This document shows, piece by piece, positions 1,849-22,607 of a stretch of DNA of 37,745 bases. The DNA is from a virus. The position numbers were made by a program, and so were the translations under genes. The first letter of the stretch is position 1; every line of letters begins with the position of its first letter. The notes under the pieces are model-generated. The model ran no database searches and was not told the origin of the DNA. It saw only the letters and a program-made list of their open reading frames with translations. The stretch spans positions 1 to 37,745 of IMG/VR virus record IMGVR_UViG_3300045116_000254. One strand, given 5' to 3'.

Positions 1849-1877
1849 TTGACAGAACCCTATCGTTAGCCTATAAG
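1849..1877 (+). promoter_or_regulatory. Promoter for nuclease-helicase unit
   Basis: TTGACA (1849-1854), 17-base spacer, TATAAG (1872-1877): a near-consensus sigma70 promoter. The transcript start is expected at about 1884, which is the A of the first in-frame ATG of the following gene, so the transcript would have no leader. It is the strongest promoter match seen in the window. Confidence 0.7.
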
Positions 1878-1883
1878 AGTATC

Positions 1884-2291
1884 ATGACAGACCAAATCGT
1901 TTCAGAAAAATCAAAGGCAGCATCGTTGTTGGGAAGAATCAAGAGTCTTAAGAAGACAATATCATCCAGAAAAAACGGCAAAGATCAGAAGCCTCATCTC
2001 ATGAAAACAAAATACTTTGTGTCAATATTTCCTCACAAGCTCGTCGATAATAATTGGCATAAGAAATTTCCTATGAAGATAGATGGCAAACATACGACGT
2101 ACAATCCTGACTATCGTTGTGATGAGTTGGATTGTTGGATTGAGCTGTGCACGTCTAAACCAAACATGTCTGAACAAGGATGCAAATGGGCCGAAATGAT
2201 AAGGCAAGGGCACAAGCTCAGAGTGTTTTGGTGGGAGGGTAACGAGATAACAGATGAAGTAGTAAGTCGTTACACGAGGGAGAAAGAATGA
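1884..2291 (+). CDS. Small PD-(D/E)XK/VSR-like nuclease candidate
   Basis: Start chosen at ATG 1884, immediately after a TTGACA-17-TATAAG promoter; the open frame extends upstream to 1770, but that part overlaps the promoter. The product has 135 residues. The first 40 residues are basic. The core reads TTYNPDYRCD, then WIELC, then an Arg/Lys-rich region and LRVFWWEG. This order (Pro-Asp strand, hydrophobic strand with Glu87, later helix) is that of small phage endonucleases and VSR/VRR-NUC-like folds, where the template has binding by P75-D76 and E87. The usual E-x-K is E-L-C here, with Lys92 three residues later, so activity is uncertain. The stop overlaps the helicase start by ATGA, implying coupled expression and a shared job. 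Function is inferred. Confidence 0.5.
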   Translation: MTDQIVSEKSKAASLLGRIKSLKKTISSRKNGKDQKPHLMKTKYFVSIFPHKLVDNNWHKKFPMKIDGKHTTYNPDYRCDELDCWIELCTSKPNMSEQGCKWAEMIRQGHKLRVFWWEGNEITDEVVSRYTREKE

Positions 2292-3970
2292 TCATCGAAC
2301 TACACGGGAACAGGGTTGTTGCTTTCAACTCATACTCTCATCGCATCTTGTTGAAGAGTCTCGGGTGGCGTTGGGATCCGGCGGCAAAGACATGGTGGAC
2401 AGACAATCCTGACAGAGTGAAGAACAACGAACTGCTTTCAATGTGCCCTCAGTCTGTGAAGAAATGGGTTGGTGAGGCAGAGGTTAGGAGATCTGAGTCG
2501 GTCAAAGATTCTCTTGCAACTGACGCAGACATATCAATCCCGTGTCCATACGGCCTGTCATACCTACCTTATCAGAAGGCGGGGATTGCCTACGCACTCG
2601 GACGTTCGGCCACGCTGATCGGTGACGAGATGGGTTTGGGGAAAACGATCCAGGCAATAGGGTTGATCAACGCTGATCAGTCGATCCAAACCGTTTTGAT
2701 TGTGTGCCCTGCTTCGCTTAAGTTGAACTGGAAGCGGGAGTTGGAAAAGTGGTTGACAAGAAAGATGTTGACTGAAGTCATTGACTCAAAGACTGGGTGG
2801 ATGAAGGCGCAGATTGCAATCATCAACTACGACATTTTGCATAAATATAGAGACGAGATTTGTGTGTCTGCTTGGGATCTGTTGGTATGCGACGAATCCC
2901 ACTATTTGAAGAACCCAAAAACAAACAGAACAAAGCTTGTCTTGGGATACAAGACTCCGAAGCGGGAAGGGTATGTCTCGCCCATACCGTGTAAGCGCAA
3001 AGTGTTTTTGACAGGAACAGCGATTTGCAACAAGCCGATAGAGTTGTGGCCTACAGTAAGGGCGATGGATCCACATGGTCTCGGGCTGAACTGGAAGAAA
3101 TATGTTGAGCGATACTGTGGTGGGCATGTGATCTGCATTGGGAAGGACGAATTTGGTGGTGACAAAATGGCATGGGACACAAACGGGGCGTCAAACCTCG
3201 GAGAGCTTCAAACAAAGCTGCGCGAGAAGTTCATGATAAGGCGTCAAAAATCTGACGTTCTGATAGATCTTCCTCCGAAGCGCAGGCAGATCATTGAGTT
3301 GCCAGTCAACGATTTCAATCGACCGTTCGTCAAGGCAGAGTTGGCAGAGTACGAGAAGAGGGAATCGCTGATCGAAGACTTGAAGGCGCAGGTGGAGGCT
3401 CTTAAGGATGGTGATCCAGAGGAGTACAACAGGGCAGCAACACAGTTGAAAGAAGCACGGCAAGTGATGTTCAACGAGATGGCAAAGGTCCGGCACGATA
3501 CGGCAGTGGCCAAGGTCCCGTCGCTGATCGAGTACTTAGTTGATTTGTTGGACAATGACGACGACAAAAAAATTGTGTTTTTCGCGCATCACCATGATGT
3601 TATTGATAAAGTCCGCGACAAATTCAAAGACATTTCTACTGTGCTGACAGGGCAAACAAAGAAGGAAGACAGACAGGCGGCGGTTGATAGTTTCCAGTCA
3701 GATCCAAAGTGTAAACTATTCATCGGGTCGATCACTGCGGCCGGCGTCGGGATCACTTTGACAGCTAGCAGCCACGTTGTTTTCGGAGAACTGGACTGGG
3801 TGCCTGGAAACATGACCCAGGCAGAGGACCGGTGTCACAGGATTGGACAGAAAGATAGCGTGTTGGTTCAGCACATCGTGCTTGACGGCAGCCTCGACGC
3901 CAAGATGGCAAAGCGCTTGATTGAAAAACAACACGTGATTGAGGCTACTCTAAACGGAGGTGGACAATGA
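2288..3970 (+). CDS. SNF2-family (SMARCAL1-like) DNA helicase/translocase
   Basis: ATP-dependent DNA translocase of superfamily 2, 560 residues. The N-terminal segment (about 20-45, LLKSLGWRWDPAAKTWW) resembles the HARP-like element of annealing helicases. RecA lobe 1 has motif I GDEMGLGKT (112-120), motif Ia CPASLKLNW, motif II DESH (202-205) and motif III LTGTAICN (241-248). A charged, probably helical linker spans about 345-400. Lobe 2 ends with motif VI QAEDRCHRIGQ (511-521), diagnostic of SNF2. All catalytic motifs are intact. It is translationally coupled (ATGA) to the nuclease-like gene before and the membrane-protein gene after. Related phage proteins are thought to work in replication-fork or recombination steps; a role in counter-defence or defence is possible but not shown by sequence. 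Confidence 0.92.
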   Translation: MIIELHGNRVVAFNSYSHRILLKSLGWRWDPAAKTWWTDNPDRVKNNELLSMCPQSVKKWVGEAEVRRSESVKDSLATDADISIPCPYGLSYLPYQKAGIAYALGRSATLIGDEMGLGKTIQAIGLINADQSIQTVLIVCPASLKLNWKRELEKWLTRKMLTEVIDSKTGWMKAQIAIINYDILHKYRDEICVSAWDLLVCDESHYLKNPKTNRTKLVLGYKTPKREGYVSPIPCKRKVFLTGTAICNKPIELWPTVRAMDPHGLGLNWKKYVERYCGGHVICIGKDEFGGDKMAWDTNGASNLGELQTKLREKFMIRRQKSDVLIDLPPKRRQIIELPVNDFNRPFVKAELAEYEKRESLIEDLKAQVEALKDGDPEEYNRAATQLKEARQVMFNEMAKVRHDTAVAKVPSLIEYLVDLLDNDDDKKIVFFAHHHDVIDKVRDKFKDISTVLTGQTKKEDRQAAVDSFQSDPKCKLFIGSITAAGVGITLTASSHVVFGELDWVPGNMTQAEDRCHRIGQKDSVLVQHIVLDGSLDAKMAKRLIEKQHVIEATLNGGGQ

Positions 3971-4161
3971 CAATGGATCGACTGATGCAAATCATGATAA
4001 CGGTGGCAATCGTGGCAATAATTCTCATGTTGTCACTGATAGTCAACGACAGTGTAGTCAGGAATATTCCGGCGCAAACGAATCTATACCACAAGTGTTT
4101 CGAAGACGGACAATTCCAGGCAAGTGATTGGTGCTGCGAGAAACTGAATGTCACCAAGTGA
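3967..4161 (+). CDS. Small single-pass membrane protein
   Basis: 64 residues. The ATG overlaps the helicase stop (ATGA). Residues about 8-26 form one hydrophobic span (ITVAIVAIILMLSLIV) followed by a polar C-terminal tail with three cysteines (one in YHKCFE, two in WCCEK). Either N-in or N-out topology is possible. No family recognised. It is the last gene of the plus-strand unit, and its stop codon abuts the stop of the convergent minus-strand gene with no base between them. Confidence 0.6.
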   Translation: MTMDRLMQIMITVAIVAIILMLSLIVNDSVVRNIPAQTNLYHKCFEDGQFQASDWCCEKLNVTK

Positions 4162-4311
4162 TCATTTCTTTTTCTTAGGCATCTTGTACTTTGACTTACC
4201 GGCCTTGTCCATTGCTATGGCGTAGGCTTGTCTTGCTGGTCGTCCACTTCGGATGAGTTCTGCTGTGTTTGAGTTGATAATCTGTCGTGAGGTTCCGGAT
4301 TTAAGTGGCAT
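4162..4311 (-). CDS. Small basic phage protein (PLKSG...AGKSK type)
   Basis: A 49-residue gene that is easily missed by length filters. It starts MPLKSGTSRQII and contains RPARQAYAIAMDKAGKSKYK, ending in a lysine run. This matches the recurring phage small-protein pattern 'PLKSG...I..N...L...G.P.kQAvAIA..KAGKSK', whose function is unknown to me. It overlaps the 3' end of the preceding gene (4215-4571) in another frame. It is the last gene of the DNA-metabolism unit. The strong family-like pattern, rather than length, supports it as real. Confidence 0.75.
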   Translation of the reverse strand: MPLKSGTSRQIINSNTAELIRSGRPARQAYAIAMDKAGKSKYKMPKKKK

Positions 4312-4571
4312 GTCATTTGGTCCCATAGCTGCCGGATCTCGACTCCGTTCTTGTTACCGAAGTCTTGATTATAGATCCAGTCTGCTAGTTGACCAGGGGC
4401 TCTGAGGTCTTGCTCAATGATTGCCACGACCAAAGCCTCAAGCCGTTGTGATCCTGAAAACAATACGCGCTCACCTGAGTAAGCCGTTAGTGCGTTTCCG
4501 ACTGCGTCGCATGTCACATGATGATTGTAAATCTCGATGATGGCGTTGTAAAACATACCGTATTTGATCAT
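4215..4571 (-). CDS. Hypothetical protein
   Basis: 118 residues. The ATG follows directly on the stop of the RusA-like gene (TAAATG), with GGGGGAG as ribosome binding site. The body is mixed alpha/beta (IIEIYNHHVTCDAV, LEALVVAIIEQDLRA). The C-terminal 30 residues are Gln/Ser/Thr-rich and probably disordered. No family recognised; position suggests an accessory role in replication or recombination. Confidence 0.65.
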   Translation of the reverse strand: MIKYGMFYNAIIEIYNHHVTCDAVGNALTAYSGERVLFSGSQRLEALVVAIIEQDLRAPGQLADWIYNQDFGNKNGVEIRQLWDQMTCHLNPEPHDRLSTQTQQNSSEVDDQQDKPTP

Positions 4572-4967
4572 TTACTCCCCCTTTTTGAACGAAATAAGCA
4601 CACCTTTTTCATCCTTGTTAACACGGAATGAATCACTGAACCCGAGGACATTTCCCCACCCATCACCTTGCATGAATCCGCCATAGACAAGGGCATCCAG
4701 GATAATCTTGCGGCCTCCGGCAGCGATGTTGTCTGGATCCCTTCGCTTGTCTGGCTCGCACCAAATGAAATCAATATTGACCGGAACAGTGATTGTCTCG
4801 AAGCGCTTTGATTTGGCCAGGGCAATTACCGCGCCCTCGTAATCAGCCTTGAGCTTGTGGTATTTGTGTTTGCCCCATTGTCCCTTACACGTTGTCACAA
4901 CTTCGTTGAGCCCTGGGAAAGTGAACGGGATCCACAGCGTTCTAATTTCGTGTAGCTCTTGATTCAT
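4572..4967 (-). CDS. rusA: RusA-like Holliday-junction resolvase
   Basis: 131 residues, the usual RusA length. It resolves four-way DNA junctions arising in recombination and replication so that DNA can be packaged. The signature lies in the middle: KRRDPDNIAAGGRKIILDAL followed by a short segment GGFMQGDGW, with the conserved acidic residues of DPDN and the later Asp expected to bind Mg2+. The N-terminal strand IPFTFPGLNE is also as in the family. It belongs to the minus-strand DNA-metabolism unit with a Cas4/RecB-like nuclease and a putative annealing protein upstream. Confidence 0.87.
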   Translation of the reverse strand: MNQELHEIRTLWIPFTFPGLNEVVTTCKGQWGKHKYHKLKADYEGAVIALAKSKRFETITVPVNIDFIWCEPDKRRDPDNIAAGGRKIILDALVYGGFMQGDGWGNVLGFSDSFRVNKDEKGVLISFKKGE

Positions 4968-8072: not shown

Positions 8073-9341
8073 TCAATACCTTTCTTTTATCGTCATGGTT
8101 TTGCCGTTGAAGTCCAATTCAACGACGCCACACATGCCGTTACGCGACTTTGCGATTATACACTCAATCGCATTGTTCGCGGTTGGTTTGTAATACGACT
8201 CCCTATAAAGAAGCATCACCATGTCGGCCTTAGCCTCGATGTCACCGCTCTCCTTCAGGTCAGACATGACTGGTCTTGGCGGGTTCCTTGATTCTACCCC
8301 TCGATTGATCTGACTCACAATCAACAGTGGAATAGAAAGTTTTTTGATTGTGTTCTTCATTGTGCCAAGGGCTTCGCTTATTGCAAGGTGGCGGTTCTGT
8401 CCCTTATCAGAAACCTCTTGCATGTGATCAACGATTGCCAGGTCAACCTTTTTCTTCGAGTGGATGCGGGCAATGTTGGTTGAAACCTGAGCCCCAGTGA
8501 GGCCAGGTGTGTCGATGATGGTAAGTGGAAGTTTTGAAATCTCATCTGTTGACTGCAATATCAGGCCCCATTCGTGTTCCTTTATATCACCAGTCATGAT
8601 TGAATGAAGAGGGATCTGTGTGATCCGCGAGATCATGCGTTTGTATATGTTCTTCTTTGTCTCTTCCAGGGCGTTGATGAGAACATGGCCGCCACACTTT
8701 GCCACGTTGTATGCTATATTCATTGCCATCATTGACTTTCCGATGCTTGGTCGTGCTGCGACAACATAGACCTCACCAGGACACAGGCCGTAGGTTTTGT
8801 GATTCAACCCTGCATACCCCCAAGACAGACCCATCAATTTGTTTTCGCTTTCGTAAAGACGCTCGACGTCTTTGAAAACGTCGGTCAGCACAGAATTGTC
8901 ATCTATCACGTCTTCAAGTTCAGCTTGTCTATCAAGCTCCTCATCGATCTTTTGTTTGACGAGAACAGGGTCGGCGCTCCCAACTGACTTGACAACATCA
9001 ACAACTATGTTCTTCTTATTAAAAGCCCTGAGTTCCTTCAGATAAGTAGGCATACCATTTGGATGATATGCGTACATGTTGCGCCCGTCTGTGATGATGT
9101 TAATAATTTCAAATGCTGACGGATGAAGTCTTGCATGTAGCAGCAACAGATCGTTTGGGCGCATGCCTTCTCTCTCAAGCTCTGACATTGTTTCAAAAAT
9201 CTGTTTGTTCCACGGATTTTGAAAATCGTCAGGGCGGATCTTTGCGCGGCCAAAAGCGTCATCATTCTCCATGATGCACTGAAGGATGCCTCGTTCGAGA
9301 GAAATTCTTTGGGCTTCGATTTGATCAGTTGTTGTCGCCAT
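8073..9341 (-). CDS. dnaB: DnaB-like replicative helicase
   Basis: 422-residue hexameric 5'-3' helicase of the replication fork. The N-terminal DnaB domain covers about 10-105 (SLERGILQCIMENDDAF start), then a linker and the RecA-like core: Walker A ARPSIGKS (196-203), Walker B LAIVDHMQ (301-308), the sensor-like SQINRGVESR, and MSDLKESGDIEAKADMVMLLYRE, the DnaB signature. DnaB proteins usually have GKT and D(Y/H)LQ; GKS and DHMQ here are conservative changes. It follows an O-like replication protein gene that may load it. This implies origin-dependent replication with a host polymerase. Confidence 0.92.
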   Translation of the reverse strand: MATTTDQIEAQRISLERGILQCIMENDDAFGRAKIRPDDFQNPWNKQIFETMSELEREGMRPNDLLLLHARLHPSAFEIINIITDGRNMYAYHPNGMPTYLKELRAFNKKNIVVDVVKSVGSADPVLVKQKIDEELDRQAELEDVIDDNSVLTDVFKDVERLYESENKLMGLSWGYAGLNHKTYGLCPGEVYVVAARPSIGKSMMAMNIAYNVAKCGGHVLINALEETKKNIYKRMISRITQIPLHSIMTGDIKEHEWGLILQSTDEISKLPLTIIDTPGLTGAQVSTNIARIHSKKKVDLAIVDHMQEVSDKGQNRHLAISEALGTMKNTIKKLSIPLLIVSQINRGVESRNPPRPVMSDLKESGDIEAKADMVMLLYRESYYKPTANNAIECIIAKSRNGMCGVVELDFNGKTMTIKERY

Positions 9342-9553: not shown

Positions 9554-10186
9554 TTATGTGATCTGTCCGTTTCGTATAGCCTCCATGCGCTGCTCTTCCA
9601 TTGTCTTTTGTTTTGGCTCACCATTTTTGCTGGACTTGGCCTTGATCTCAATAGCCTTGTTCATCCAGTTGAACACGAGCTGACGAGTTCTCTTTTTTCC
9701 GGCTCCCTTGTCGGTGGTAAGCCAGGTGTCCATCTTAGACAACTCAAGGTCGAAGTCTATCTCTGCATAAGCCTTATTCTTTTTGATCTCTGCAAGCCAT
9801 TCGCTTGTAACTGGTTTTGATTTTTTATCAAAAGAATCGTCGGAAGCGCTCTGCCTCTTCTCTTTTTCTAACTCTTCTCTTCTCTCCTCTGGAATAGAGA
9901 AAGGCTTGTCGCTTGCTATTATACTGCAAGCAATCTCATTGAGAAGTCGATCAACCTTGCTAGCATCATCTATGCGCAACTTGTAAGCAAGCTCTTCCGA
10001 ACTCGGCAAAATTCCATTGATGTCTTCAGATCCTATAAGCCAGACGTTTATTAAGAATCTAAACGCAGCGTCGCTCAACTTTCCAATCTGGTAATCTTCA
10101 AGTGTGTCATGATAAAGTTTGATCCACGGCGGGCGTCTTGTGTGGTAGTGCTGAAATTTTTCCCAGTTTTTTATTCTGTAGTACAT
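9554..10186 (-). CDS. O-like replication initiation / helicase-loading protein
   Basis: 210 residues. The N-terminus MYYRIKNWEKFQHYHTRRPPWIKL is the typical beginning of phage replication proteins related to DnaD/DnaT and lambda-O-type winged helix proteins. The winged-helix body runs to about 90 (LSDAAFRFLINVWLIGSE, LPSSEELAYKLRI). A charged linker follows, then a C-terminal region (AYAEIDFDLELSKMDTWLTT...RTRQLVFNWMNKA) that in homologues is linked to helicase recruitment. Gene order, directly before DnaB, supports that role. The start overlaps the HTH gene end and has GGGGGG upstream. Confidence 0.78.
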   Translation of the reverse strand: MYYRIKNWEKFQHYHTRRPPWIKLYHDTLEDYQIGKLSDAAFRFLINVWLIGSEDINGILPSSEELAYKLRIDDASKVDRLLNEIACSIIASDKPFSIPEERREELEKEKRQSASDDSFDKKSKPVTSEWLAEIKKNKAYAEIDFDLELSKMDTWLTTDKGAGKKRTRQLVFNWMNKAIEIKAKSSKNGEPKQKTMEEQRMEAIRNGQIT

Positions 10187-10371
10187 GACTGCCCCCCATC
10201 GTTTAAGCGATTCGTTTTGATAAAAAGAGACAGGTCGGCCTCTGTCACTCTGATTCGTCTCGCGCTTAACTTGCGGGCCTTGAGGCGTCCGGCCCTTATG
10301 AGCCGGTACACCCCATCCCTGCTTATGCCGAGCATGTTGGCAACCTGTTTTGCATTGTAGATGTCTTGCAT
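10171..10371 (-). CDS. Small HTH DNA-binding protein (excisionase/MerR-like)
   Basis: 66 residues from ATG 10371; AAAGGGG at the proper distance decides this start. NAKQVANMLGISRDGVYRLIRAGRL followed by LSARRIRVTEADLSLFI is the helix-turn-helix of the excisionase (HTH_17) family: winged recognition helix, then the beta-hairpin with Arg-rich 'RRIRV'. There is no integrase in the window, so it is probably a regulator or origin-binding protein and not a true excisionase. It overlaps the nuclease gene before it (stop inside its ribosome binding site). Confidence 0.75.
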   Translation of the reverse strand: MQDIYNAKQVANMLGISRDGVYRLIRAGRLKARKLSARRIRVTEADLSLFIKTNRLNDGGQSCTTE

Positions 10372-10373
10372 GT

Positions 10374-11381
10374 TTACCCCTTTGAGTCTGACATTATGGT
10401 TTGGTAATACGCGTCGTTTGATTTTGGCTCCCATTTCTCGGGAGTTTTTTCTTCACCTTTTACGTTAATGATTTCCTTTTTCAAATAAGAAGACTTGACT
10501 TCGTCCCATGTTTTTGGGACCTTATTTGTCTTCTCGACTTTCTTGATTTTCACAATGAAGTCACCACACATGAACTCGCCAGCACCCAAGTTGTCTTTCA
10601 AGGAATTAAGTTCCTTGTCTATGTCGTCATACTCGCGTTTGTAAGGATCAAGAACTTCGCGGCGCTCAAGTTTTTCAACCCACTCTTCTCCGATCATTTT
10701 GATTTCTTGGCCATACTTCAACTCTGGAAGACAGACGTGTCTAAACGGACACTTCGAGCAAACCTCGTATTCATCGCATCTTGCTGGTGGTTCTTTTTCT
10801 CTGATACTTGCATAAATAACCCGAGCCTTGTCGATTAAGCCGATGATCATGGCCTCATCACGATCAATCCAGATGTCCGTTGGTTCCCCAGTATCTTTGT
10901 TTTTGAAGCACAAGAAAGAAGTCTTGGCATTCAGAAAGTACATGTACATCTGCATCTGCGCCGGATAGTTTCGAAGATGAATGTGCTTTGAGTTTACCAG
11001 GTCATCAACAGTCTTGACGTGAATATGAGAATTGACTGACTTGACATCGACTGGAATCTCCTCGCCCTCGTGCAGAATCACGGCATCGACGTGTCCGGTT
11101 ATCAATGGGTCGTCTAACTGAAATGCCTGCTGAGACTTGACGACCTTGTACATCGACATAAGTTGTTTTAACATGTCTTGCTCGTGAAGTTCGCCCTCGT
11201 CAAAGATTGACTGCAAAAGGTAGTCGTGCACAGGACGTTTGCGCCAATCGACAATTGAGTGATAGTGATAGCGCAAACAAGGGTGTCCAATTGATGATGC
11301 CCGCAAATTGTTGTTTGGCAAGACCTTGATGTTCGCAACCTTTGTCTCAATCCATTTTTCGTGGAGATCAAACCGTTTCAT
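10374..11381 (-). CDS. Cas4/RecB-like PD-(D/E)XK exonuclease with Fe-S cluster
   Basis: 335 residues. Nuclease motifs: GHVDAVI with Asp99, PVDVKS with Asp112 and Lys114, and the helix YPAQMQMYMYF with Gln142, as in the RecB/AddB/Cas4 family. Cysteines at about 35 and 208, 211, 217 (CSKCPFRHVC) fit the four-Cys iron-sulphur cluster that pins N- and C-terminal parts in AddB and Cas4. The C-terminal 90 residues are charged. It is next but one to a putative annealing protein, as in phage exonuclease/annealing recombination pairs. Assignment to the superfamily is secure; polarity and substrate are not visible. Confidence 0.85.
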   Translation of the reverse strand: MKRFDLHEKWIETKVANIKVLPNNNLRASSIGHPCLRYHYHSIVDWRKRPVHDYLLQSIFDEGELHEQDMLKQLMSMYKVVKSQQAFQLDDPLITGHVDAVILHEGEEIPVDVKSVNSHIHVKTVDDLVNSKHIHLRNYPAQMQMYMYFLNAKTSFLCFKNKDTGEPTDIWIDRDEAMIIGLIDKARVIYASIREKEPPARCDEYEVCSKCPFRHVCLPELKYGQEIKMIGEEWVEKLERREVLDPYKREYDDIDKELNSLKDNLGAGEFMCGDFIVKIKKVEKTNKVPKTWDEVKSSYLKKEIINVKGEEKTPEKWEPKSNDAYYQTIMSDSKG

Positions 11382-12553: not shown

Positions 12554-12581
12554 ATTATATCTGAACAATGTTTCATGTGAA
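12554..12581 (-). promoter_or_regulatory. Promoter of the DNA-metabolism unit
   Basis: Minus strand: TTCACA (12581-12576), 16-base spacer, TATAAT (12559-12554); five of six and six of six consensus bases. The start is expected near 12547. The -35 lies inside the palindrome at 12569-12584, so binding there would block the promoter. Confidence 0.6.
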
Positions 12582-13675: not shown

Positions 13676-13990
13676 TTATTTTCTGTTGCTTCTTTCAAGT
13701 ATTGTCTCCAGTTTTACCACGCTCGACTTGATCTCATCCACTGTCACCTGAACCTTGTCGATCTTAGTCTCGGTGGCTGTTTGAAGTTTTTCGATTTTCG
13801 TATCCGTGTAGTCTCTGTTAACGAGAATTGCCGTAAAGTGCGCGGCCACAATGGCAACGATGATTGCTCCTACTTGAATCATCAGCGACAAACCAAACCT
13901 TTGCGGACAATGATTTTCAGGACGGCATGGTCCGTTATTCGTTGTTTCAATTTCATCGTCAATATCAATCGGCTTGGCTCGAACTCTCAT
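13676..13990 (-). CDS. Membrane-anchored coiled-coil protein of lysis cassette
   Basis: 104 residues from ATG 13990, set by GGAGGTTGAC upstream. N-terminal 35 residues polar with two Cys; one transmembrane segment (LSLMIQVGAIIVAIVAAHFTAILV, about 35-58); then a helix with heptad-like spacing (TDTKIEKLQTATETKIDKVQVTVDEIKSSVVKLETIL). It could be a holin partner or second holin. The start overlaps the end of the giant virion protein gene by 26 bases. No family recognised with certainty. Confidence 0.6.
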   Translation of the reverse strand: MRVRAKPIDIDDEIETTNNGPCRPENHCPQRFGLSLMIQVGAIIVAIVAAHFTAILVNRDYTDTKIEKLQTATETKIDKVQVTVDEIKSSVVKLETILERSNRK

Positions 13991-16900
13991 TGTCAACCTC
14001 CATTGTCTTAACTTCCTTCATGGCTTCAAGAGCCATGTCAGACGCGCCATCAAAGTCTTTCTGGTCGAGAAGATCTTTGATCATACCATAGTAAACTTTC
14101 AATATTTCATACTTCGCTGGGTCGAAACCATATTTTTTCTCTATCGCTTCTATTTGGGTCTGTTGTTCATCACCAAAAACACCAGTCTTTTTTGCCTTGT
14201 TCATGATTGAGCGAACTGTGTTTTTTATCGATTGCTGATCTTCCCATTCTTTGAAAAAGTCATCGAGCGCCTGGCCGGATCTGTTCTTTCTAGCAAACCA
14301 TCGACCGATGACAGGAAGATCTGCCGCTTCTTTTTCTCTTTCTTTGAACCCGTATTTCGTCATAGGAGTCACAAATTTCGACATGCCAGTAATGCTTGTC
14401 CCAAGTCCTCCAGTGTAGCCGTAAACGAGTTGGTTGAGATAGATGGGGCTTACTCCCATTTGTGTTGCGATTTCGATGATGAGCGGATCTGTGAACTCAT
14501 TGATCTGAACCTCTGGCTTGAGCGTTTTCATGTACTCATTCATCAATGGTCTGTCTCTAAAAAATGATTTGTTTGCCCAAACCTCAACCGCTGGTCCAGC
14601 AAATGCAGGCAAGAATGGCGGAATAATTGATTGACGGAAGTATTGTTCCGCATACGAATCAATGATCGATGGATCCTGCTGGTCGATAGAGTCAAGGATT
14701 CCGACAAGAAGTGACCCGAACAAAAACCCGAGTTCGTCCTGCGGCAGCGGGAACTTTACAATTTTGTCACCAATCTTGACATTGGCAAAACCAACTCGCT
14801 CCCACCACGGCATTTGTCTATACTGTTTGTCTTTTCTCACTGACAAGTATGCTGCCAGCGTCGGGAGTGTGATGCCGACAAGTGCAGCCATGACAGCCTT
14901 TTTCCGTCTTTTTGGATCTTTGAAATTGTCGTAAAATTTCTTTTTGCCAAGTGCCCAAGCGTTGTGAAACGGGATAAATCGATTTAGAAACTTTGAGACA
15001 ACGCCGCCTTTTCTAAAATTCAGCGTGACCTCGGCGGCAGCATTTGCCTTTGCAATAGCGAGGTCTTCTGCCGTGTATTCTGGGCGTTCCTTTGGCAACT
15101 GTTCGCCGACAACCTTAAACTCTCCGAGCCTTGTTGCTGTCTCTGAAATTGAGAAAACAGATTTAACAAAATCAATCGGATGACGGACGATCAACATGGC
15201 TTTCGATAGTGGCCCGTTGGCAAGAATTTGATCTTGGATGTGTTTAAGACTTTGCTGGTCTTCCCTGACCTGATTGAACAATTCACCACCAGTGTCTCGC
15301 CACTGCTGATATTCAGGAGAGTTTTTGGCAATCAACTTATAGGCTCCAAGATGACGAACAAGTGCCATTGGAGACGGATACTTTGAGTTCACCATCGAAG
15401 TGATTGCGTCACGGAAAGCGTTGACGATGGTCCAGCTAAACTTCAACCCAGTGGCACCCAATACGATTGTCTTTTTTGGAATTTCAAGAATCTTAAAAAA
15501 CACATTCAACACAGGACCAAACTCTGGAACGTCAAGATTGGCCAATGTCTTATAGAGCCAGGGATCAATTTCAAAGTAGCGATTTTGCCCATCGATTCTC
15601 TTGATGACGATAGGATCGTTGCCACGGTAAGCAAGCAGGTTAGAGAAATATGTGACGACGTTGTCGAGCCCAGACGCTTTGCCCTCCTCGTCAACAATTT
15701 CAAAACCAAATTGTTTTTTGAGGGCTTCATTCAGCTTCTCAATCGAGACATGATTTGGAACCTGGATCGCGTCGATCTCGCGCACCCACCACTTCCCTTC
15801 TGGTGACTTCATGGCAAGATCAACCAGGGCATTTCCAACGCGAGTTCTGTCGGCGATGGCAATCATGTTCTTCACCATTGAAACGGCCTGCTGCAAGAAA
15901 TGCTGGACCTTTCTTGCGCTGCCTTCCTCTGTCATTTTCTTCACCGCAGATCCAGGCATAATGTAAGAGCCCTTGCCAAACCCAGATCCGATTGTCTCAT
16001 CGTAAATCCGCTTCAACGGAAGATAAAAATCAATGGATTTTAAGATTATTTCAGCGTCTTTCTCTGTGAGGCCACCTGATCTCACAACATAATGGACAAG
16101 GTTTTGATACCAGTTGGACATCGCATCAGTAGTTTCCTGATAATATGGAACGTCCTTGTATTTGTTGTAAACGTACTGAGCGTCCTGCTGTGAAATGCCT
16201 GGGTTTCGCCCCTGGTCGAGTCTGGCCAAAGCAATCTTTGAATAAGCAAACCGAAGGAACTGATCGAAGTTTTTGGACACAGGGGCCAAAATTTCTTTCA
16301 GGCTTGGACCAATGCGTTTCCCTGAAAAATCAACTTGGCCATGAATAAGCCAAGCTATTGCCCTGGCATCAGATCCAAGAGAATACATTTTAAGCTCGTA
16401 AGGATCATGCGACGGAGAAACATGGAAGTTGACCCCAGAGATCATGTCGTTAACGGCTTTTTTGAGTATCGCATCAGAATCAAACAGGGCCTCTTCGGTC
16501 CTCAGCTTAAACCGTTGCCACTTAGACAAGTGTGTCCCCTTCGGCTCCTCTCCGATCTTCCCCATCTGGCCGGCAACACGAGATTCGGCGCCCTGGCCTG
16601 TGAAACGAGAAGTGATGTTCAAGGTCTGCTGAACTCGTTTGTTGACCTCGGGATATTGTTTCAGCCACGCTGTGAAATCTCTGTAAAAATTTGGAGCGAG
16701 CTCTTGAGCCCTCTGGTTGTTCATGAAGTAATGACGCATGAACTCGGCAAACCCTTCTTTGATGTTGTCTTTTTCCAGGTTGTAATCAAGCGGGAGAATT
16801 TCGTTTTTGTGTTTTTTATACAGTGTCCTTATGGCAGATTGATTGTCAAACCAGTGAGCAATTTCGTGCGTCGCGGTTGGAACGTCGTTGGCAACAGCTA

Positions 16901-19433
16901 CTCGGATCACACCTGACCTCGGATAGAACAACCCTGCGCGTTCCATCTTTTGAGTTTTTGTCCGAAACCTTCCGTACTTGACAGGAGCGTTCCAAATAGC
17001 AGCCATCTGCTGAACGGCATCCACCCCACCGAGAGGCTCTGTCCTTGCATACGATGGTTGAGGTTCCATGCTGATGTTTGAATCACGCTGGTAAAGCCCT
17101 GCCGCAGTCCCTCCGGCAATAGCGCCCTGAGGTTTTTCTGGTGTCTTGCTTTCTCTCCACCGGACCTCTGCGTCAATGTCGCCACCAAGCCTCGACTTGA
17201 TGTATTTGTTCTGGTGGGATCCTGCCCAGTCCCTCAAGCTCAACACATCATCATCGCCAAGTTTTGAAATGATTGACTTATAATAATCCAAACCTCTTTC
17301 GAGACCGCCCTGTTTCGTGATTTGACTTTCGATCAATTCTTTCAGCGATTCCAGTTCTGATTTGATTCCGGCAACCTCTTGGATCCGTTGCGGATCCGCA
17401 TCAATGCTTCCGATCTTCCCAAACTTTGCCTTGTCCATTACCACAGGACTCACAACACCAACCGTTTTTCCTCCAGAGGTGAAAAAAGCAATACCTGAGT
17501 TTGGCGCAACACTGACTTCGGCGTCAGGATGAAATGTTAAAATGTTATCAACCTGATTAATGTCGTATGAGAAATGGTGCTGCAAGTCTGTCGTTGCCGC
17601 GTGAACAAGAGGTGAAGCGGATATCCCGTTGTAATATTCGCCAGCGAACTTGGCGGGCACAGCTTCATTTGGGAGAGTAATAATTTTTTTGAGACTTTCA
17701 CTTTTCTCATCTGGCAGAGGAGAGACATTCTTGTTTTTTATTGCAGACTTTGGAAGCTGGATAACATAACCGCCATTTGTGAAGACGCCAAGTTTGTCTG
17801 AATAAAAAGACATTTTTGATTTTTTGTTCCAGGGATTGCGCGTCTGAACTGCCGTGACATTTTTTGGTTTGTAGGCGTTATAATAGACAACACCTTCTCC
17901 TTGCGGCCTCACGCTCGGAAATCTCTTTGTTGTTTTGGAAGGTCCGTGCTGCGGCAATTTATTTGTCGGCCAGTTTTTATCGACCACGGCCTTGAAGTTC
18001 TGAAGTTTTGGCATCGAATAGGGGATCCTGAACTCCCCGTCCCCTGGCACTTTGAACAAAACAGTTTGCGGAGTCAGGTTCTCTTTCGGAGCGTCTGTCA
18101 TTGCGTCCTTGATGCTGTCAGACAAAAAGGCTTGCTGTTGTTTTGCCGTAACCTTTGACGCATCGCCCACCTGCTCTGAATACTGTTTCACAATATCTAC
18201 GCCTCCATCAACATCTGGAACTGCCTTTTGTTTTGGCAGCGCGGGTGGAGGTGTAGGTGGAAGCTGAGCAGTCGTCTCGTCGGCAACAGGAGTGAGCTGA
18301 ACCACTGGTTTTGTTGGCTCCGGGATCGGTTGAGGCTTTGCAATTTCCGTTGTCAATTCAGGCTGAGGAACTGGCTCTGGCTGAGGGGCCACTGGCTTTG
18401 GCTCAATCTTTTGCGTGGTCTCTGCAAGCAACGCGGGAGGTGTTGGTTTTTTGTTCTCTGCTGCTTTCCTGACGTTCTTGATGATGTCGTTAAACAGATA
18501 TTTGACTTTTGAAACGATACCAGACTTTGAAACGTATTGCTGATCTATGACTCCGCCAGTATTAGGATCGCGTTTTATCCATACATCGCCACCTGTTCTT
18601 GGCATTGTTCCATAATACTCAAACCCCTCATTCTGAAGAGTTTTAATTTTCGCGTCCCTGGCTGTCATTTCAGCAAGAGAGCTTTTGACGGATGAAGAAA
18701 TCTTTGGAGCCACACTTCTGACTCCTTTAATTGCGTATGGCGTGGCCAACATTGCAGCAAGGGTTGCAGCTTCTCCAGCCTTCGTCATATCTTTCTCAAG
18801 AATTGCTTCGGTTCCTTTTTTCCCAACCTGATATCCCATAACCGGAGGAACGACAACCGAGGACACTTGTGGCATGGACGCCATTAAAGCAATCTGCTGA
18901 ATAGCGGCAGGGCTGGACAGGCTTTCGACTGTGTTTTTTATTCCCCGAGTGAACTTGCTAAGTTTTGTTTTGTCTTCAGTCTTATCGAACTGAATCATTG
19001 GCTTGTTAAACTCTTTAATTTGCTCGGGCGTCATCACCGGAGGTCTGATTTGTCCATATTGCATCACACCAAGACCAACTGACTGTGGCATGTTATATGA
19101 TGGTGTCGGTTGTTCTTCTGTTCTCTGGAATTGTTTTGGAACCTTTTTGACTGGTGTGTAAATTGGACCTTTGTGTGTAATCCAGTCATAAGATTTTTTG
19201 GCAACACCCTTGACAGCCTCAATCCCTTTGTCGAGAAGAGACGGCTCCTCTGTTGCTTGTGTTATTTGTTTGTTTTCAAAACCAAAAACAGACTCAAGAT
19301 TTTGTTTTGATTTGTTTGTCTTCAATGAAGGGAATGAAGGGTTTGGTTTAATTACTTCTTTCTTGTCTTCAGGCTCAACAACTGGAGTCCCAAAAAAATC
19401 AGCCTCAAGATTTTGTATGGTTTGAGAGGTCAT
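13965..19433 (-). CDS. Giant polyvalent internal virion protein with zincin motif
   Basis: About 1822 residues from ATG 19433 (a GTG at 19448 is alternative); the largest gene here. Residues 1-120 are disordered, 330-420 Pro/Gln-rich. HEIAH at about 856-860 with EGFAEF at 893-898 gives the HExxH...E arrangement of zinc metallopeptidases. The last 700 residues (FRDAITSMVNSK, KFLNRFIPFHNAWALGKKKFYDNFKDP, ANKSFFRDRPL) resemble LPD38-type domains of large polyvalent phage proteins. Such proteins are packaged in the virion and ejected with the DNA, where their domains act on envelope or host factors. Several hydrophobic segments may help cross membranes. Its place between Gln/Ala-rich virion genes and the lysis cassette fits an ejection protein. 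Confidence 0.75.
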   Translation of the reverse strand: MTSQTIQNLEADFFGTPVVEPEDKKEVIKPNPSFPSLKTNKSKQNLESVFGFENKQITQATEEPSLLDKGIEAVKGVAKKSYDWITHKGPIYTPVKKVPKQFQRTEEQPTPSYNMPQSVGLGVMQYGQIRPPVMTPEQIKEFNKPMIQFDKTEDKTKLSKFTRGIKNTVESLSSPAAIQQIALMASMPQVSSVVVPPVMGYQVGKKGTEAILEKDMTKAGEAATLAAMLATPYAIKGVRSVAPKISSSVKSSLAEMTARDAKIKTLQNEGFEYYGTMPRTGGDVWIKRDPNTGGVIDQQYVSKSGIVSKVKYLFNDIIKNVRKAAENKKPTPPALLAETTQKIEPKPVAPQPEPVPQPELTTEIAKPQPIPEPTKPVVQLTPVADETTAQLPPTPPPALPKQKAVPDVDGGVDIVKQYSEQVGDASKVTAKQQQAFLSDSIKDAMTDAPKENLTPQTVLFKVPGDGEFRIPYSMPKLQNFKAVVDKNWPTNKLPQHGPSKTTKRFPSVRPQGEGVVYYNAYKPKNVTAVQTRNPWNKKSKMSFYSDKLGVFTNGGYVIQLPKSAIKNKNVSPLPDEKSESLKKIITLPNEAVPAKFAGEYYNGISASPLVHAATTDLQHHFSYDINQVDNILTFHPDAEVSVAPNSGIAFFTSGGKTVGVVSPVVMDKAKFGKIGSIDADPQRIQEVAGIKSELESLKELIESQITKQGGLERGLDYYKSIISKLGDDDVLSLRDWAGSHQNKYIKSRLGGDIDAEVRWRESKTPEKPQGAIAGGTAAGLYQRDSNISMEPQPSYARTEPLGGVDAVQQMAAIWNAPVKYGRFRTKTQKMERAGLFYPRSGVIRVAVANDVPTATHEIAHWFDNQSAIRTLYKKHKNEILPLDYNLEKDNIKEGFAEFMRHYFMNNQRAQELAPNFYRDFTAWLKQYPEVNKRVQQTLNITSRFTGQGAESRVAGQMGKIGEEPKGTHLSKWQRFKLRTEEALFDSDAILKKAVNDMISGVNFHVSPSHDPYELKMYSLGSDARAIAWLIHGQVDFSGKRIGPSLKEILAPVSKNFDQFLRFAYSKIALARLDQGRNPGISQQDAQYVYNKYKDVPYYQETTDAMSNWYQNLVHYVVRSGGLTEKDAEIILKSIDFYLPLKRIYDETIGSGFGKGSYIMPGSAVKKMTEEGSARKVQHFLQQAVSMVKNMIAIADRTRVGNALVDLAMKSPEGKWWVREIDAIQVPNHVSIEKLNEALKKQFGFEIVDEEGKASGLDNVVTYFSNLLAYRGNDPIVIKRIDGQNRYFEIDPWLYKTLANLDVPEFGPVLNVFFKILEIPKKTIVLGATGLKFSWTIVNAFRDAITSMVNSKYPSPMALVRHLGAYKLIAKNSPEYQQWRDTGGELFNQVREDQQSLKHIQDQILANGPLSKAMLIVRHPIDFVKSVFSISETATRLGEFKVVGEQLPKERPEYTAEDLAIAKANAAAEVTLNFRKGGVVSKFLNRFIPFHNAWALGKKKFYDNFKDPKRRKKAVMAALVGITLPTLAAYLSVRKDKQYRQMPWWERVGFANVKIGDKIVKFPLPQDELGFLFGSLLVGILDSIDQQDPSIIDSYAEQYFRQSIIPPFLPAFAGPAVEVWANKSFFRDRPLMNEYMKTLKPEVQINEFTDPLIIEIATQMGVSPIYLNQLVYGYTGGLGTSITGMSKFVTPMTKYGFKEREKEAADLPVIGRWFARKNRSGQALDDFFKEWEDQQSIKNTVRSIMNKAKKTGVFGDEQQTQIEAIEKKYGFDPAKYEILKVYYGMIKDLLDQKDFDGASDMALEAMKEVKTMEVDNESSSQAD

Positions 19434-19434
19434 T

Positions 19435-19875
19435 TTATTTTGCGCCACTTGAACGAATTTTTTTTACTCTCGTTTGTTCTTCATATTTCTGATCAAGTGG
19501 TAATGAATTATACCACGTCTCATATTGTGATGCCTCTTCATCACTTATAGTGCCTTGACCAAACTTCGTTCCATAATTTCTCATCCTTGATGTGTATTGC
19601 CACTGTGATTCTGGTGTTGGAGCGTTTGGTCTCCAAACAGGATCAATCTCTTCTTGAGTTGGATCATATTTGGCTTTGCCAGCCGATTTTGACGAAATAA
19701 ATAATGCTCTATCGGCAGGTGATAGAGTCTTTAATTTTTCATAATCTCTGATTTCGGTTGTGCTTTCAGGAAACAACATTGCCTCTGCTTGTTTTTTCTT
19801 TGTGCCACCATATTCTCCAAGCCCTTCACCAACACCTTTAAGCAATGATCCTGCAATTACTTTTTTCCAGTTCAT
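19435..19875 (-). CDS. Internal virion protein candidate
   Basis: 146 residues; GGGGGC before ATG 19875. N-terminal amphipathic KKVIAGSLLKGVGEGLGEYGG, then a helix-rich, charged body with Trp/Tyr (WQYTSRMRNYGTKFG). No family recognised. It lies between the Gln-rich protein and the giant ejection protein and probably belongs to the same DNA-ejection set. Confidence 0.6.
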   Translation of the reverse strand: MNWKKVIAGSLLKGVGEGLGEYGGTKKKQAEAMLFPESTTEIRDYEKLKTLSPADRALFISSKSAGKAKYDPTQEEIDPVWRPNAPTPESQWQYTSRMRNYGTKFGQGTISDEEASQYETWYNSLPLDQKYEEQTRVKKIRSSGAK

Positions 19876-21793: not shown

Positions 21794-22330
21794 TCACCTC
21801 CACACGTTCTGAAGACGTTTTTGCAAATCTTCTTTGAACGCACAAAATCTTAAAATGTTCACGCGTTTTCCTTCAAACAATGCCTCGTTGAATAGTGTGC
21901 CCTCAAGCACAAATCCGTTTTTTGACAATTCTGTCTCAACTCGGTCATTCACAACGAGAGTTTCGCAAATCACCTTCTCAATTCCAAGAGAATTGATCAC
22001 AAAATCAAGGATGATGGCTGTTGCCGACATAGCGTGTTTCATTTTTCGAAACTCTGGTTTTATCATCACTCCAATGCTGGCAACCCTGGCCTTCCACTTT
22101 ATGTTGTAAACCATCGCCAGTCCAACCTCGACTTGGCTGTTGTCGTCATAGACGACGAACATGTGTGCGTTTCCAAGATTGGCAAGAGACACAAAATCTT
22201 CATGGCGCATGACAGGCCCGAAGTCATAAAAGAATGTAGCGTTTTCGTGGTCGTAGTAACACTCTTTTGCAAAGTCTGCGTCTTTTGCTTCGTAAAGTCT
22301 GAGAAAGGTTGTCGCCGTTTTTTTAAGCAT
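21794..22330 (-). CDS. GNAT-family acetyltransferase
   Basis: 178 residues from ATG 22330 (GGAACCGGAAAAG upstream; an ATG at 22357 lies inside the previous gene). GNAT fold order is visible: N-terminal ATTFLRLYEAKDADF, strand HMFVVYDDNSQVEVGLAMVY, strand VASIGVMIKPEFRKMKHAMSA with an acetyl-CoA loop-like segment, helix, then KVICETLVVNDRVETELSKNGFVLEG, ending in NILRF. The acceptor is unknown. Its position inside the tail/internal-protein cluster is shared with several podoviruses and suggests virion-protein or host-factor modification. Confidence 0.78.
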   Translation of the reverse strand: MLKKTATTFLRLYEAKDADFAKECYYDHENATFFYDFGPVMRHEDFVSLANLGNAHMFVVYDDNSQVEVGLAMVYNIKWKARVASIGVMIKPEFRKMKHAMSATAIILDFVINSLGIEKVICETLVVNDRVETELSKNGFVLEGTLFNEALFEGKRVNILRFCAFKEDLQKRLQNVWR

Positions 22331-22607
22331 CTTTTCCGGTTCCTTTAGACAAAGCATGTGCTTTGCGTCTTATGTCAACAACTTTGGAAAATCTTTTGTC
22401 AAATCTTATCGATAAAATATTTGCCAATGGAAAATTCAACCACTCATTGTCACCTGTAAGGATTTCAAAAACCTTTGTTTCTGTGACAAAGTATCTCTCG
22501 GCAACTTCAAACTCCTCTTTTTTTCCAGTAACAAATTCAATGGTAACTCCAAAATGATCTGGAAGAGCTTGGTCGTCTTTTTTGATGAATGGTTTGACGC
22601 TGTTCAT
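22323..22607 (-). CDS. Hypothetical tail-region protein
   Basis: 94 residues from ATG 22607, which overlaps the fibre gene stop (ATGA) with GAGGGTTTT as binding site. A longer frame upstream lies antisense-like over the fibre gene and is not needed. Beta-rich middle (FGVTIEFVTGKKEEFEVAERYFVTETKVFEILTG, NFPLANILSIRFDKRF) and a basic tail. Beta-sheet pattern suggests a small barrel. No family recognised. Confidence 0.65.
   Translation of the reverse strand: MNSVKPFIKKDDQALPDHFGVTIEFVTGKKEEFEVAERYFVTETKVFEILTGDNEWLNFPLANILSIRFDKRFSKVVDIRRKAHALSKGTGKDA

Follow-up and report, generated by a model that had tools for sequence, protein, structure and literature searches.

Organization of the three-gene locus

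The analysed stretch of DNA, termed the window in the following, is a 37,745-base virus record in which three overlapping genes are encoded on the plus strand, next to divergently oriented terminase genes. The features considered here are:

1849-1877, plus strand: promoter TTGACA-N17-TATAAG, 11/12 consensus positions, 6 nt before the gene 1 ATG
1884-2291, plus strand: gene 1, an orphan open reading frame (ORF) of 135 aa
2288-2291, plus strand: ATGA overlap of genes 1 and 2, read from the sequence
2288-3970, plus strand: gene 2, 560 aa, SNF2-family DNA translocase/helicase
3967-3970, plus strand: ATGA overlap of genes 2 and 3, read from the sequence
3967-4161, plus strand: gene 3, 64 aa, one N-terminal hydrophobic helix
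1384-1803, minus strand: terminase small subunit (PF20901, E 9e-20), the divergent neighbour
From ~1391 off the left end, minus strand: terminase large subunit, cut by the window start and named from sequence
4572-4967: RusA resolvase
8073-9341: DnaB helicase
10171-10434: weak excisionase-like HTH
10374-11381: Cas4/RecB-like exonuclease
12554-12581, minus strand: second sigma-70-like promoter, TTCACA-16-TATAAT, 11/12, directly before the replication block ending at 4162

A preliminary description of this DNA had proposed three plus-strand ORFs with two ATGA junctions, and the coordinates match the sequence. Codon usage is in favour of genes 1 and 2, with in-frame scores of +0.10 and +0.14 per codon and negative scores in the other five frames in both cases; the score of gene 3 is weak (-0.02), and a GGAGG ribosome site precedes its ATG. 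Purine-rich ribosome sites are located ahead of genes 2 and 3. A start further upstream, which would extend gene 1 to the ORF 1770-2291, was discarded, as the added codons score -0.06 and the ORF would cover the promoter and the terminase start. GC skew is positive over approximately 1.8-4.5 kb only and near or below zero elsewhere, and thus the strand switch is real. Taken together, the unit is a real and cleanly built operon with an ordinary centre, and its unusual parts are the two orphan small genes.

Genome context

The IMG/VR contig IMGVR_UViG_3300045117_000222 is 100% identical to the window in their overlap and bridges the window ends across approximately 492 bases missing there. Since this identical contig joins the end of the window to its start, the genome is circularly permuted and approximately 38.2 kb long, with no plus-strand block other than the trio. 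The earlier statement that the remaining genes are located on the minus strand applies to almost the entire circle.

The genome also encodes portal, scaffold, and major head proteins. The nearest relatives of the head protein show 28-33% identity and belong to Arthrobacter and Microbacterium phages and an uncultured podovirus. A search for sister phages via the terminase returned the identical contig only. The structural-gene relatives ctEqG8, Jasmine, and Shocker carry distant helicases, and the helicase neighbours differ in ctEqG8 and Jasmine. No clear lysogeny genes were found apart from the weak excisionase-like HTH.

Three further minus-strand genes were recorded. A basic ORF of 54 aa (4162-4326, MPLKSG...IRSGRPARQAYAIAMDKAGKSK) ends tail to tail with gene 3, the two stop codons abutting in TGATCA (4159-4164). 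A GNAT-type acetyltransferase gene (21794-22357; PF13302, E 1e-9) is located amid virion genes, and a protein of 1,827 aa (13965-19448) matches unnamed phage families only (phrog_9854 and phrog_14770).

Promoter and divergent transcription starts

The near-consensus promoter previously noted for the trio was found again as the 11/12 site at 1849-1877. The window has two sites of this quality in all, against approximately 0.5 expected by chance and 0-1 in each of 15 Markov shuffles. No Shine-Dalgarno sequence was found before the ATG of gene 1. Because the -10 element ends 6 nt before this ATG and a Shine-Dalgarno sequence is missing, transcription is predicted from the sequence to begin at the ATG, i.e. 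to be leaderless.

The start of the terminase small subunit gene is similarly equipped, with a -10-like TACAAT 8 nt before the ATG and no Shine-Dalgarno sequence, and among the 51 starts examined no other is preceded at 6-8 nt by a -10 element with 5/6 matches. The region 1804-1883 is the sole region of transcription divergence, and both of its starts look leaderless. This divergent start pair, common to the trio and the terminase operon, is a modest point of interest.

Gene 2 encodes an SNF2-family helicase

Gene 2 had been called a full SNF2 helicase, and this designation is well founded. The protein matches PF00176 (110.6 bits, E 1e-31, cut-off 24.9), the helicase-C domain PF00271 (59.2 bits, E 6e-16, cut-off 23.5), and phrog_62 (E 3e-108 over residues 87-557). 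All motifs are intact, namely GDEMGLGKT (112-120), DESH (202-205), LTGT (241-244), GVGITLT (486-492), and QAEDRCHRIGQ (511-521). With both domains above the curated cut-offs and with intact Walker A, DExH, and motif VI, the protein belongs to the SNF2 family (PF00176). Among solved structures, the Snf2/Rad54-family helicase 1z63 gave the best match (E 1e-28). Relatives were found in 1,318 phage records with a best identity of approximately 40%, and the helicases of the best IMG/VR loci are 43-54% identical to gene 2. Such phage relatives typically sit in replication/recombination regions. Gene 2 shares all ATPase motifs with the SNF2 phage helicases of phrog_62 and differs from them in its neighbours, but in nothing essential.

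The additional label “SMARCAL1-like” was not retained, as no HARP domain model occurs among the Pfam matches of gene 2 at E up to 1. The N-terminal part of approximately 80 aa (GWRWD..KTWWT) shows a weak match to DUF5710 (E 0.033).

Gene 3 encodes a putative small membrane protein

The product of gene 3 contains a single hydrophobic stretch (residues 9-27, mean hydropathy 2.81), in agreement with the one-pass membrane protein described before, and three cysteines in its C-terminal half. No relatives were found, and there is no family match in Pfam, PHROGs, PADLOC, or NCBIfam.

Gene 1 is an orphan with a nuclease-like motif

Gene 1 has no family match in Pfam, PHROGs, NCBIfam, or PADLOC and no credible match in the PDB. 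Homologue searches in IMG/VR, GTDB genomes, phages, and plasmids returned the identical contig only, and the same holds for 44 whole phage/virus records and all ORFs of the fetched helicase loci. Two IMG/VR loci (L002 and L003) were rejected as candidate relatives, since the similarity covers 26 residues inside a 736-aa gene within a run of virion-looking genes and is attributed to chance.

By eye, the protein contains N-P-D-Y (P75, D76), followed by W85-I86-E87-L88-C89 and then Q98. The active site of VRR-Nuc nucleases is PD-Xn-(D/E)-X-K, with a conserved glutamine contacting the lysine (PMC4103454). Gene 1 provides P75, D76, and E87, and C89 occupies the lysine position, so the complete active site is not present. 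In a MAFFT alignment with VRR-Nuc proteins, P75/D76, E87, and Q98 are in register and the lysine is replaced by cysteine. The pattern of PD followed by two hydrophobic residues and E occurred in 0.14% of gene 1 shuffles, and in 0.018% with the glutamine added, both values coming from a post-hoc test. A VRR-Nuc HMM scored -0.1 bit on gene 1, which was equalled or surpassed by 297 of 1,933 shuffles and is not significant. In Pfam, PF08774 (VRR-Nuc) was not hit up to E 1 by the full protein or up to E 10 by the trimmed one. HH-suite yielded no useful alignment of the single gene 1 sequence with the VRR-Nuc alignment. AlphaFold2 models computed without an alignment for the full and the trimmed protein were of low confidence (pLDDT 51.7 and 60.9), and Foldseek found no match at E 0.001; models of this quality speak neither for nor against the nuclease fold.

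The earlier term “nuclease-like” is thus justified insofar as the PD...E...Q string resembles PD-(D/E)XK, but it finds no family, profile, or structural support, and the catalytic lysine is absent. A similar partial likeness exists to the DUF1064 / endonuclease I-like phage resolvases (loci L041 and L045), in which P-D-(F/Y) is followed by a hydrophobic-acidic motif as in gene 1; unlike these, gene 1 lacks a Pfam DUF1064 match and the Lys-Gly. In our judgement the chance that gene 1 has a PD-(D/E)XK fold is about one half, and that of a working nuclease is lower. Nuclease activity is doubtful because the catalytic lysine is a cysteine.

Recurrence of the trio and of its parts

The neighbourhood of gene 2 was compared with approximately 65 non-redundant related helicase loci. 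None of them contains the gene 1 protein. The immediate upstream neighbours of the related helicases (n=41) are nearly all different; three are of PD-(D/E)XK type (L005, VRR-like; L040, PD..ExK; L045, DUF1064) and one is a RusA (L008). When 50 virus records carrying related helicases were searched with VRR_NUC, two hits came up, both below threshold, and one of these was adjacent to the helicase. A gene for a predicted membrane protein follows the helicase in 3 of 38 loci, compared with a background of 4.3% (14 of 322 small genes overall). In locus L005, a nuclease, the helicase, and a membrane ORF of 49 aa occur in this order, with an overlap of 4 nt between helicase and membrane ORF; its proteins do not match genes 1 and 3 in phmmer.

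A co-occurrence check had been proposed in the preliminary description, and its outcome goes against a three-gene system, as the trio recurs nowhere among the loci and databases searched: gene 1 has no relative there but the identical contig, the upstream neighbours are diverse, and membrane-protein genes are at background. There is no sign of a conserved three-gene system. Loci L040 (~2195-2215) and L045 (~2871-2887) share the palindrome TTGCGCACGTGCGC just before the SNF2 gene, which looks operator-like.

The pair of a small nuclease and an SNF2 helicase, on the other hand, is already known in phages. With a staphylococcal phage VRR-Nuc protein as query, the SNF2 helicase was found directly downstream in 54 of 56 IMG/VR loci. 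In Listeria phage LWP01 the nuclease precedes an SNF2 helicase with overlapping genes, and in Paracoccus phage Pyei1 an annotated “endonuclease” lies upstream of the helicase with an overlap of 4 nt. Among the nine core genes of Candidatus Heliusviridae, a VRR-Nuc nuclease and an SNF2-like helicase carry the consecutive numbers 4-5, just before the terminase (PMC9226167). Standalone VRR-Nuc proteins of prokaryotes form dimers and cleave Holliday (four-way) junctions (PMC4103454).

As in the Heliusviridae, staphylococcal, and Listeria phages, the locus described here has a small protein gene overlapping the downstream SNF2 gene near the terminase. Gene 1 shares with VRR-Nuc proteins the motif PD, E, and a Q nine residues beyond the lysine position, but has no profile match and carries a cysteine at the catalytic lysine. 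In contrast to the known pair, the trio runs opposite to the terminase genes, and gene 2 belongs to another branch than the staphylococcal and Listeria helicases (approximately 23-27% identity), with an extra N-terminal domain.

Proposed function and alternative explanations

The data show the gene structure, the SNF2 identity, the promoter match, and the lack of conservation, and from these observations we infer the timing, partnership, and function of the unit. Its likeliest role is the handling of branched phage DNA, not defence, because of the known nuclease and SNF2 pairs and the junction-cutting VRR-Nuc proteins. In detail, we propose a phage operon for the processing of DNA branches, probably early, in which the nuclease-like partner may have decayed and the membrane protein is specific to the lineage; we consider this reading about evenly balanced between right and wrong.

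Host RNA polymerase would use the near-consensus promoter and initiate at the first base of the gene 1 start codon, giving a putatively leaderless transcript. Expression is probably early, as judged only from the promoter class. Genes 2 and 3 would be translated next via translational coupling. The SNF2 protein would translocate along double-strand DNA and most likely remodel phage DNA that is branched or stalled, alongside the DnaB helicase, the Cas4/RecB-like exonuclease, and the RusA resolvase that this genome also encodes. Gene 1 is most likely descended from, or a mimic of, the small PD-(D/E)XK resolvase-type nucleases often located directly upstream of phage SNF2 genes. Its product would be a DNA-binding or nicking partner of the SNF2 protein, with catalysis doubtful without the lysine. 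Gene 3 would add a lineage-specific small membrane protein on the same transcript. The branch-processing reading is favoured by the intact SNF2 motifs, the ubiquity of such helicases in phages, the recurrence of small nucleases directly ahead of SNF2 genes, the junction cleavage by VRR-Nuc proteins, the rarity of the PD...hhE pattern in shuffles, and the second 11/12 promoter (12581), which heads the replication block. Speaking against it are the VRR-Nuc profile score of gene 1, its lack of any family or PDB match, structure models too poor for a judgement, the rarity of a nuclease neighbour among the close relatives of gene 2, and the RusA resolvase already present at 4572-4967.

The strongest alternative, which we regard as somewhat improbable, is that gene 1 is unrelated to nucleases and that its product, a small protein specific to the phage with a DNA-binding, regulatory, or anti-host role, has no more than the transcript in common with the SNF2 protein, which alone would act on DNA. 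This would explain why no homologue or fold match of any kind was obtained, why the catalytic lysine is missing, and why the VRR profile score does not exceed that of shuffles. Against it stand the PD...hhE...Q spacing, which is rare by chance, the MAFFT register with VRR-Nuc proteins, and the slot directly upstream of the SNF2 gene, where small nucleases recur.

A “moron”-type cassette for defence or superinfection exclusion, in which helicase and partner attack competing phage DNA at the membrane, is unlikely. The trio has its own strand and promoter, the genes flanking the helicase are orphans, one of them for a membrane protein, and the helicase core resembles the ZorD, DpdE, and DrmD models. 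These matches, however, reflect the common SNF2 core: ZorD scored 118.8 bits with a cut-off of 1500, and the PADLOC and NCBIfam scores for Zorya, DISARM, and Dpd are far below the full-length cut-offs. Moreover, neither ZorA/B/C nor DISARM or Dpd partners were seen among the trio or the annotated genes of the window. ZorD shares the SWI2/SNF2 motor core with gene 2, but has approximately 1,000 aa and a nuclease domain and needs ZorA/B/C. The trio is not recurrent, such helicases are standard in phage replication regions, and, beyond the weak excisionase-like HTH, clear lysogeny genes are lacking. Of the two functions suggested previously, defence against competing phage DNA is therefore unsupported, with matches to the motor core only, and action at the phage's own replication forks is the better reading.

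A far more specific version of the branch-processing reading is quite improbable in our view. Here, gene 1 would be a Lys-to-Cys PD-(D/E)XK protein serving as a non-cutting or cysteine-dependent junction adaptor for the SNF2 motor, tethered to the membrane via gene 3 and expressed early from a leaderless mRNA, with a likewise leaderless packaging transcript running in the other direction. Finally, it is very improbable that the SNF2 protein is a RapA-like transcription factor that recycles or remodels host RNA polymerase when early gives way to late expression at the divergent promoter region: the annotation RapA does occur in some phage relatives (Sphingobium phage Lacusarx), but the NCBIfam RapA model scored 54.9 bits with a cut-off of 576, and the approximately 80 N-terminal aa of gene 2 are too short for the RapA N-terminal domains.

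Under the branch-processing reading, a reverse-strand cassette that looks unusual is for the most part a well-known phage block consisting of an SNF2 motor and a small partner. Should gene 1 have the nuclease fold, the locus would offer a natural example of a resolvase-type protein that has lost its catalytic lysine but not its position beside the motor. Such a case, if true, would help to ask what nuclease-motor pairs do in phage replication.
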